From Tateyamaria sp. Alg231-49 (GTDB lineage: Bacteria; Pseudomonadota; Alphaproteobacteria; Rhodobacterales; Rhodobacteraceae): a stretch of DNA of 64,000 nucleotides. Shown here piece by piece: positions 52,703-64,000 of this stretch. Numbering within the stretch: position 1 is the stretch's first letter; each line of letters opens with the position of its first letter. The notes under the pieces were generated by a model. It was not told the origin of the DNA. It did no database searches and worked only from the letters and a program-made list of their open reading frames with translations. A program made the position numbers and the translations under genes. The stretch spans positions 186,001 through 250,000 of the forward strand of contig NZ_FRFA01000007.1 of NCBI RefSeq assembly GCF_900143535.1, read 5' to 3'.

Positions 52703-53575
52703 TCATCCCATCGCGCGCAATCGCTTGATCAGGCTCGATGTATCCCACCGACCGCCGCCCAGCTTTTGCACATCTTTGTAAAACTGATCGACCAGTGCCG
52801 TGACTGGTAGGCTGGCCCCGTTTTCGTCCGCTGTGTCCAGGCAAATCCCAAGGTCTTTGCGCATCCAGTCCACGGCAAAGCCATGATCAAAATGATCATC
52901 CAGCATCGTTTCGTAGCGGTTTGCCATTTGCCAAGAGCCTGCGGCGCCCTGACTGATCACCTCAACCACGGCACGCCCGTCAAGGCCCGCCTTTTCGGCA
53001 AAGTGCAGCGCCTCTGACAGGCCTTGAACAAGGCCTGCGATGGCAATCTGATTGCACATTTTGGTGGTTTGACCGGTGCCGCTTTCACCGATACGGCGGC
53101 ACAGTTTGGCATAGGTGTTCATAACCGGTTCAGCGCGTTCATAAGCGCCGGCGTCCCCACCGCACATGATTGACAGGGCGGCATTCTCAGCCCCCGCCTG
53201 ACCACCCGAAATCGGGGCATCCACATAGCTGATCTGCAAGGCATCTGCCGTAGCATAAAGCTCTGAAGTTACCGCCGCCGACACAGTGGTGTGATCGACA
53301 AAGACAGCGCCAGATTCCATCCCGGCAAACGCACCATCTTCCCCCAGAGTGACCGAGCGCAGGTCATCGTCATTACCCACGCAGGACATCACAAACTCTG
53401 CGCCTGAGGCGGCTTCGCGCGGTGTTGTTGCCATGGCTCCACCATAGGCCTTGACCCAAGCATCGGCCCTTGCCGCCGTCCGATTGTAAACCGTAACGTC
53501 GTGCCCTGCCTTTTGCAGATGCCCTGCCATTGGTCCGCCCATTACGCCCAGACCCAAGAATGCTAGCTTTGCCAT
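52703..53575 (-). CDS. 3-Hydroxyisobutyrate dehydrogenase-family oxidoreductase
   Basis: 290 aa beta-hydroxyacid dehydrogenase. NAD(P) motif LGLGVMGGPMAGHLQKAG at the N-terminus; substrate-binding APISGGQAGAENAALSIMCGG; catalytic lysine in GQTTKMCNQIAIA. Could act on hydroxyisobutyrate, tartronate semialdehyde or similar. Divergent from the acylase gene. Confidence 0.88.
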   Translation of the reverse strand: MAKLAFLGLGVMGGPMAGHLQKAGHDVTVYNRTAARADAWVKAYGGAMATTPREAASGAEFVMSCVGNDDDLRSVTLGEDGAFAGMESGAVFVDHTTVSAAVTSELYATADALQISYVDAPISGGQAGAENAALSIMCGGDAGAYERAEPVMNTYAKLCRRIGESGTGQTTKMCNQIAIAGLVQGLSEALHFAEKAGLDGRAVVEVISQGAAGSWQMANRYETMLDDHFDHGFAVDWMRKDLGICLDTADENGASLPVTALVDQFYKDVQKLGGGRWDTSSLIKRLRAMG

Positions 53576-61623: not shown

Positions 61624-63453
61624 CTACTCTTCGTACCACCAGAACTGTGGCATCCAATCCGGCCCATCGCCGTAGATTGGGATAACGTCAGGGTGTTTCA
61701 TCTCTTTGACATGCGCGATCCGGCCTGTCGTGAACTGCCAGAACGGCACCACATAACGTCCCGCGATCAAAAGACGGTCGAGGGCGCGGGTCGCGGCAAC
61801 GCTCTCTTCGGCACTGCGGGCTGTGAGCATAGCGGTGATCATCGCGTCAATGGCAGGGTCTTTGGCCCCCATGAGATTGCGTGAGCCTTCTTGATCCGCG
61901 GCTTCAGATCCCCAGTAGAAAAACTGTTCGTTTCCGGGGCTCAGTGACATGGCGCGGCGATGGTATGTCATGTCGAAGTCATAGGTGGTTGTACGGGCCG
62001 TGAATTGCGCGCCGTCCACCAGTTCGGTTGTGACGTCGATTCCCATTTGTTCAAGCGCCTGAGTGTAGAGATCCGCGATTGCGCGGTCTTCACTGCGTTG
62101 CTGATCCAAGAGAATGGTAAAGGCCATGGCCTGACCATCGGCATTGCGCAATTTGCCGTCTTGAGTCGTCCATCCAGCCTCTTCCAGCAGGCCAAGGGCG
62201 CGGCGCAGACCGGCACGGTTGCGCAAAGTGCCATCGCTTTGGGGCAGTTCATAACCTTCCATCACACCTGGCAACAGTTTCCCGTTGAAGGGCGCGAGCA
62301 ATGCGGCAACCGCGCCTTTGGCTGGTCCGGGTTCCATGGCAAGTGGCGAATTGGAGAAGTATGAGGTGATGCGCGGTTGTGCGCCGCCTGTAAGGGTGTC
62401 GTTGATGTATTCAAAGTTGAATGCGGTGATCAGCGCCTCGCGCACGCGCCAGTCATCAAACGGCGCCCGCCTTGTATTCATGACAAAGCCGGTGATGCCG
62501 GATGGCTTTTGGTGTTTGATTTCTGACTTCGACACTGCGCCAGATTCGACGCGGGGGAAGCTGTACTGGTTGGCCCAGGCATCTGCGTTGAACTCGCGCA
62601 TGGCAGATACGCCGCCTGCCTTGAAGGCTTCGAACACCACATCGCCGTCGCCGTAAAAATCGATTGTGATTTCGTCAAAGTTGAAAGTGCCGCGCATAAA
62701 GTTCAGGTCGGCACCCCAATAGTCAGGATTGCGCGTCAGGACGACATTACGGGCCGCCTCGTAATCGCTGATCACGTAAGGTCCGCTTCCTATCGGGATA
62801 TCGCCAAGGGCAGCATCGGCGAAGGATTTCCCTTCCCACTGCGCCTTTTGCAGAATCGGACGCATGCCTGCCAGCAACGCCAGTTCGCGATTTTCGGTGT
62901 TGAAGGTAAACCGGACGGTGGCCGGGCCGACCTGCTCAAGAGTTTCGATCTGGGTCCAGAGACTGCGGTAGCGTCCATGCCCTTCGGTCCCAAGCGTTTC
63001 GTAGGACCAGATCACATCCTCGACCGTCACCGGGCTGCCATCAGAGAACCGCGCCTCGGGGCGCAGGGTGAACTCCACCCAAGAGCGATCGTCCGGCACC
63101 TCAATCGATTCGGCGAGCACGCCGTAGAGCGCAAAGGGTTCGTTGCGGTTGCGCCCCATCAGGGATTCGTGGGTTAAAAAACGCAGCTGCCAGGGCACGT
63201 TGCCCTTCTGAATGTAGGGATTGAGCGAATCAAAGCTGCCAGTGTTTGCCAGCGTTATGGCGCCGCCTTTTGGGGCATCGGGATTCGCGTGCGGAAGAGA
63301 CACAAAATCCGGTGGTAGGGCAGGCGCTCCATACATAGCTATGCCATGGCTTGGCTCTGCTTGTGTCTGCGTCACACCTGACACAAAGGTTAACAGAATC
63401 GCGCCAAATGCGATTAAACGCACCTTCTCAAATTGGAAATAATCCCGGCCCAT
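61624..63453 (-). CDS. YejA-like peptide-binding protein of an ABC importer
   Basis: 609 aa family 5 solute-binding protein with a signal sequence (VRLIAFGAILLTFVSGVTQTQA). Typical YejA segments: HGIAMYGAPALPPDF, PKGGAITLANTGSFDSLNPYI and VPWQLRFLTHESLMGR. Binds peptides or microcin-C-like compounds in the periplasm. No permease or ATPase genes follow; instead comes an aquaporin relic. MGRDYFQ at 63453 is taken as start; ATG 63492 adds 13 residues. Confidence 0.88.
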   Translation of the reverse strand: MGRDYFQFEKVRLIAFGAILLTFVSGVTQTQAEPSHGIAMYGAPALPPDFVSLPHANPDAPKGGAITLANTGSFDSLNPYIQKGNVPWQLRFLTHESLMGRNRNEPFALYGVLAESIEVPDDRSWVEFTLRPEARFSDGSPVTVEDVIWSYETLGTEGHGRYRSLWTQIETLEQVGPATVRFTFNTENRELALLAGMRPILQKAQWEGKSFADAALGDIPIGSGPYVISDYEAARNVVLTRNPDYWGADLNFMRGTFNFDEITIDFYGDGDVVFEAFKAGGVSAMREFNADAWANQYSFPRVESGAVSKSEIKHQKPSGITGFVMNTRRAPFDDWRVREALITAFNFEYINDTLTGGAQPRITSYFSNSPLAMEPGPAKGAVAALLAPFNGKLLPGVMEGYELPQSDGTLRNRAGLRRALGLLEEAGWTTQDGKLRNADGQAMAFTILLDQQRSEDRAIADLYTQALEQMGIDVTTELVDGAQFTARTTTYDFDMTYHRRAMSLSPGNEQFFYWGSEAADQEGSRNLMGAKDPAIDAMITAMLTARSAEESVAATRALDRLLIAGRYVVPFWQFTTGRIAHVKEMKHPDVIPIYGDGPDWMPQFWWYEE

Positions 63454-63532
63454 ATCGTAAACAATCCTCAATTGCCCTTGTTTTGTTAACAATAGCGAGC
63501 GTTGGACCTTTACGCATTATCAAACTTTTAGC

Positions 63533-63561
63533 TTGGACTCTTTGAGCGCATTTGCTTATAA
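63533..63561 (+). promoter_or_regulatory. Promoter of the candidate small RNA
   Basis: TTGGAC (63533-63538) and TTATAA (63556-63561) are spaced by 17 bases. Transcription would start near 63568. Divergent from the yejA-like gene. Confidence 0.6.
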
Positions 63562-63567
63562 CTAAGT

Positions 63568-63645
63568 CACTGCTCGATAGGTTTCTTGCCTGTATGAAAC
63601 CTGCCTCAATAACTTAACGCCAGCTTCGTGCTGGCGTTTTTTTTT
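63568..63645 (+). ncRNA. Candidate intergenic small RNA, about 78 nt
   Basis: No ORF lies here, but a promoter, a hairpin and a strong terminator do. The hairpin stem is AGGTTTC (63579-63585) with GAAACCT (63596-63602), loop of ten. After a short single-stranded linker (GCCTCAATAACTT) comes the terminator (63616-63645). The T-run of nine suits Hfq binding. Targets unknown; not a family I recognise. Confidence 0.6.
63616..63645 (+). terminator. Terminator of the small RNA
   Basis: AACGCCAGC (63616-63624) pairs perfectly with GCTGGCGTT (63630-63638), loop TTCGT, and T continues from 63637 to 63645. No A-run on the left, so it works on the + strand, where no coding gene lies upstream. Confidence 0.9.
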
Positions 63646-63748
63646 GTTCGAATTTGTGTCAGTGCAGAACACGATCACCAAAAGAATATGTGGCGTTGAT
63701 CCCGAATCTGATGGCGCAGGTGAACGATTGGCATGCTTCAACCAATGC
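63646..63748. other. Gap with no feature seen
   Basis: 103 bases between the small RNA and the DUF502 stop. Short frames only; no terminator for the DUF502 gene is visible. Confidence 0.5.
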
Positions 63749-64000
63749 TTACTTGGGTGGCTGCGTCGGGTCCTTGCCATTCGGATAAACGAGCCCCGCC
63801 GAGATCACCAGTTTGGCTGCATCCTCGACACTCATATCCAGTTCGATCACGTCTTCGGCAGGGAAGAACAGCAAAAATCCAGAGGTCGGGTTTGGTGTCG
63901 TGGGCACAAAGATGCTGCGCAGCTCACCTGTATTACCAGCGCGCTCGCTGACCTCGCCTTTGGCGGTCGTTGAAATAAAGCCGATAGCCCAGATGCCCTT
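63749..64000 (-). CDS. DUF502 membrane protein, C-terminal part
   Basis: The last 83 residues before the stop at 63749-63751; the gene continues beyond the window. RSIFVPTTPNPTSGFLLFFP and DVIELDMSVEDAAKLVISAG are the DUF502 hallmarks. These are small two-helix inner-membrane proteins of unknown function; the visible part is the soluble C-terminal domain. Confidence 0.88.
   Translation of the reverse strand, partial: KGIWAIGFISTTAKGEVSERAGNTGELRSIFVPTTPNPTSGFLLFFPAEDVIELDMSVEDAAKLVISAGLVYPNGKDPTQPPK

Follow-up and report, generated by a model that had tools for sequence, protein, structure and literature searches.

An StsR-like small RNA locus conserved across the Rhodobacteraceae and complementary to the mraZ/dcw leader

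A small RNA locus between two minus-strand genes

The window analyzed here, a stretch of DNA 64 kb in length, carries at positions 63533-63645 of its plus strand a compact locus made up of promoter-like boxes, a hairpin and an intrinsic terminator. The nearest coding genes on both sides are located on the minus strand: a divergent neighbor for an extracellular solute-binding protein of family 5, oligopeptide type (61624..63453; Pfam PF00496), and a convergent neighbor for a DUF502 protein (63749..64000; Pfam PF04367), which is cut by the window end. The initial annotation had described a small RNA (sRNA) with no coding gene upstream on its strand and with Hfq encoded in the same window; the gene arrangement bears out the first point, and hfq is found near 44.8-45.1 kb.

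The individual elements that had been named at the locus can be read directly from the DNA. The -35 box TTGGAC (63533-63538, in the context CTTGGAC) is separated by a 17-nt spacer from TTATAA (63556-63561), and the -10 box extends to 63562 as TTATAAC; in relatives, CTTGG of the former is kept, as is TAT of the latter in most. Directly 5' of the -35 box lies an AT-rich element, TCAAACTTTTAGC (63520..63532, plus strand), that is nearly invariant in aligned loci. Among aligned relatives conservation sets in abruptly at ACTGCTCG, and on this basis we infer an sRNA start at A63569 or C63570, giving an StsR-like plus-strand transcript of about 77 nt at most (63569..63645). Its predicted fold opens with hairpin 1 (63578..63603), in which UAGGUUUC and GAAACCUG enclose a 10-nt loop, UUGCCUGUAU, and form the seven Watson-Crick pairs noted earlier plus a closing U-G. 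A single-stranded linker follows, CCTCAATAACTT (63604..63615), with first letters that are invariant and a middle that varies in relatives. The intrinsic terminator detected by a terminator scan, AACGCCAGC-TTCGT-GCTGGCGTT followed by a T run (63616..63645), has a stem of nine pairs (63616-63638), six of them G-C, around the loop TTCGT. The run of nine T (63637-63645) is present on the plus strand only, and its first two T also close the stem on the 3' side.

The sRNA as a whole is predicted to fold at -24.8 kcal/mol, compared with a mean of -14.4 for shuffled sequences (z = -4.3), and none of 200 shuffles did as well. Terminator-like sites as such are no more frequent than expected, with four in 4 kb against 4.4 in shuffles, although that of the sRNA is the strongest by far (9 pairs versus 5), and the sRNA promoter, which has no strict sigma-70 match, was passed over by a consensus promoter scan. 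With the promoter uncalled, a motif scan alone is no proof of a gene; it is conservation that rules out chance. We also observed a 72-codon frame antisense to the sRNA (63562-63780, minus strand), where the conservation pattern has no sign of coding. A short frame within the sRNA, ATGAAACCTGCCTCAATAACTTAA (MKPASIT), is unlikely to be coding because its length or its stop shifts in relatives.

Conservation within the Rhodobacteraceae

A search with the sRNA region recovered it in all 20 genomes of the genus, and nearly all of 394 Rhodobacteraceae genomes, sampled at one per genus, have a strong match. The roughly ten of the 394 with only a weak best match (E above 0.02) are mostly assemblies of 70-92% completeness. 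In 26 aligned relatives the first ~39 nt of the sRNA are invariant; little or nothing changes between ACTGCTCG and CCTGCCTC, and the linker varies slightly. The initial annotation had tied its reading to conservation of the hairpins in relatives, and these are kept in essentially the whole family. The terminator stem shows compensatory changes in three of its nine pairs, with A-U, C-G and U-A replacing G-C at one pair and C-G replacing G-C at another. Hairpin 1 shows no variation in any of its eight pairs, so that covariation neither supports nor refutes its pairing.

A covariance-model search had been suggested as a check. The model scores 109 bits over the 77 positions 63569..63645 and reaches 103-109 bits in the five family members of a class-wide sample, while nothing outside the Rhodobacteraceae exceeds 33.3 bits among 385 alphaproteobacterial genomes. 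As far as tested, the sRNA is confined to this family. The same scores bear on whether the locus could instead belong to Rfam family BjrC1505 (RF02356), an sRNA of Alphaproteobacteria that was originally found in Bradyrhizobium. A 400-base search did return a full-length match to that model (29.0 bits, E = 0.0011), and similarly weak matches occur at the loci of two relatives (L029 and L030). However, 29.0 bits falls well short of the gathering score of 50, the alignment takes in the promoter, which would lie outside the RNA, and the sRNA model itself stays at or below 33.3 bits outside the family against at least 103 inside. We consider membership in BjrC1505 very improbable.

The surroundings of the sRNA are conserved selectively. 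The SBP_bac_5 gene is divergent from it in every locus examined, and the DUF502 neighbor is not adjacent in all relatives. A purely cis-acting element, consisting of a terminator of the neighboring genes and chance promoter-like boxes with no trans-acting RNA, would suit a position between two minus-strand genes, and the stem could end DUF502 transcription from the other side. Against it, the T run is on the plus strand only, the promoter boxes are conserved, the DUF502 gene is not a fixed neighbor, and the transcript body is conserved far better than its flanks; we give this explanation almost no credence. The family-wide conservation supports the original proposal of a free-standing sRNA gene that has a promoter and a terminator of its own. 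In Paracoccus, the sRNA resides on very large secondary replicons of ~1.46 to 2.24 Mb, and on plasmid pPAN3 of Paracoccus pantotrophus it is found at record positions 53170-53289.

Upstream of the transcript, TCAAACTTTTAGC and the promoter boxes are kept in relatives, and the spacer between the boxes differs in its letters and, by one base, in its length. Together with the -35 box, TCAAACTTTTAGC has a single exact copy in its own genome, and a search of that genome for similar motifs within three mismatches returned eight matches, compared with 14 for the reversed control, giving no sign of a regulon. Candidate roles for it are those of an UP element and of a regulator site, and the divergent solute-binding-protein gene may share it. 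The TTG and TAT boxes of the promoter fit the RpoHI/RpoHII type, and the genome encodes two rpoH paralogs. The -10 box is missing a T at -9, a base reported to be critical for RpoHI (PMC3441632), and the sigma factor is for this reason uncertain; judged from these boxes, RpoHII or the housekeeping sigma factor is a possible driver.

Predicted pairing with the mraZ/dcw leader

The initial annotation had suggested that the linker could pair with mRNAs, at their translation starts. Both suggestions shift on closer inspection: the best-supported pairing region is TGCCTGTATGAAACCTGC, the loop plus 3' arm of hairpin 1 (63587..63604, plus strand), and the best-supported target is the long mraZ/dcw leader, which also yields UpsM. 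A target search with loop and linker had been recommended, and the loop, together with the 3' arm, does lead to this leader; the linker is not the best-supported part. In the window genome, all 18 nt of 63587-63604 have a perfect complement at G000:C16:208570-208587, a sense-strand site that precedes mraZ; the mraZ match itself is at G000:C16 208801. A 20-mer query with up to three mismatches matched only the sRNA itself and the mraZ-leader site in the whole genome, and its reversed control had zero matches there; a 17-mer search with three mismatches proved too permissive for counting targets. The isolated 18-pair duplex has a predicted energy of -32.4 kcal/mol, compared with -8.4 for hairpin 1, which the duplex must open.

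The core of this site recurs across the family. All 12 genomes examined, including Cereibacter and Rhodobacter capsulatus, have the loop-complementary 9-mer CATACAGGC at an equivalent position of the mraZ leader, and it occurs once per mraZ-leader locus and never on the opposite strand. Because the 9-mer was sought after it had first been sighted, the weight lies on its recurrence at one position and not on length alone. For two of the 12 genomes, the longest complementary run is only 9 nt, a length that shuffled sequences also reach. In every genome examined across the family, the sRNA and its target site co-occur. A further candidate target, rpoE, was not confirmed: simple duplex energies were no better than those of shuffled targets in any genome. 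The mraZ leader of the window genome (G000:C16 near 208570-208801) is itself UpsM-like: it carries a strong inverted repeat that runs into T, an arrangement described for UpsM of R. sphaeroides (PMC5089854).

For the window organism, transcription itself, its start site and sigma factor, binding to Hfq, cleavage by RNase E and the consequences for division are all inferred, and the following course of events is proposed. The StsR-like sRNA would be transcribed from its own stress or stationary-phase promoter, presumably of the RpoHI/RpoHII type, and would end at its own intrinsic terminator, leaving a U tail that may suit Hfq. Hairpin 1 would then use its loop and 3' arm to invade two RNAs, namely the mraZ/dcw (division and cell wall) operon in its 5' leader and UpsM, an sRNA terminating within that leader. 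The resulting duplex could extend over up to 18 continuous bp; the complementarity is observed, the pairing predicted. By orthology with R. sphaeroides, duplex formation would expose the leader to RNase E, lowering dcw mRNA and slowing division in stationary phase.

The degree of sRNA conservation goes beyond what the varying dcw-leader site requires, and for this reason it is likely that the RNA has other conserved targets or binds a protein. The same observation, an invariance of ~39 nt beyond the demand of a varying UpsM site, makes other targets likely and also speaks for a family-wide sRNA distinct from StsR, acting chiefly on mRNA translation starts and with the 18-nt dcw-leader match as a secondary feature; it can be added that what ties the window RNA to StsR is its partner, its relatives and its length, and not the published letters. 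On the other hand, the genome has no near-perfect complement besides the leader site, the core of which is present in all 12 genomes tested, and the dcw leader and UpsM represent the very pairing by which StsR is named. A distinct sRNA is improbable in our estimation, if somewhat less so than the explanations weighed above.

Relation to StsR and other known RNAs

The copy of Rfam that was searched contains no gathering-level match for the sRNA, which is thus an RNA that this copy does not recognize. Two previously described RNAs deserve comparison. SorX (RF02784) of R. sphaeroides resembles the sRNA through weak model matches in three relatives; these reach only 21.1 to 29.6 bits against a gathering score of 46.6, the window locus itself is not among the matches listed, and membership was rejected. 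SorX moreover arises through RNase E processing of a precursor (PMC8625941), whereas the window RNA has its own promoter. Intergenic 134 of Paracoccus denitrificans is an expressed 84-nt sRNA, conserved in Rhodobacteraceae and with a gene context in common with R. sphaeroides (PMC5107571). By its number it is possibly encoded on chromosome 2, and the Paracoccus copies of the window sRNA are on large secondary replicons; it may be the same RNA, and we treat it as a candidate lead only. Among the papers searched, none names RSP_0827 or its neighbors.

The agreement of partner, relatives, length and architecture makes it highly probable, on comparative grounds, that the locus is a previously unannotated ortholog of StsR (formerly RSs0827), predicted to pair with the dcw leader and UpsM. 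The name StsR stands for sRNA targeting sRNA. Orthologs of the window sRNA are found in Cereibacter johrii, C. azotoformans and Rhodobacter capsulatus, R. sphaeroides 2.4.1 being outside the genomes compared, and that of Cereibacter johrii keeps the core and is matched by a site in the leader. PuhA of Cereibacter johrii is 100% identical to an R. sphaeroides PuhA probe sequence, and we take this species to be a near relative of R. sphaeroides.

The sRNA is real and very probably functional, representing a further member of an already known kind of RNA and not a new system. For the window genome, this provides a named regulator together with a testable target, and family-wide conservation would make the link between a stress sigma factor and cell division testable in marine roseobacters, beyond R. 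sphaeroides. More broadly, it is an evenly balanced proposition that StsR is a universal and near-invariant regulator of the Rhodobacteraceae, fixed beside one SBP gene and a conserved upstream element, with its invariance set by many further targets or a protein partner, and that StsR-UpsM control of division is ancestral to the family and not a speciality of R. sphaeroides.

In R. sphaeroides, StsR is a 72-nt RNA, formerly RSs0827 (PMC8307010). RpoHI/RpoHII induce it in stationary phase, it is bound by Hfq, and its base pairing with UpsM and with the 5' UTR of dcw leads to RNase E cleavage, less dcw mRNA and slower growth (PMC8307010, PMC8625941, PMC11354728). For rpoE, with which StsR is reported to pair near the start codon in R. 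sphaeroides, the duplex energies of the window sRNA are at shuffle level. StsR and the window sRNA are both orphan genes with their own promoter and terminator, the maximum of ~77 nt estimated here suits the published 72 nt if the transcript ends inside the T run, and both have complementarity to the mraZ/dcw leader and UpsM, with which the window sRNA is predicted to pair.
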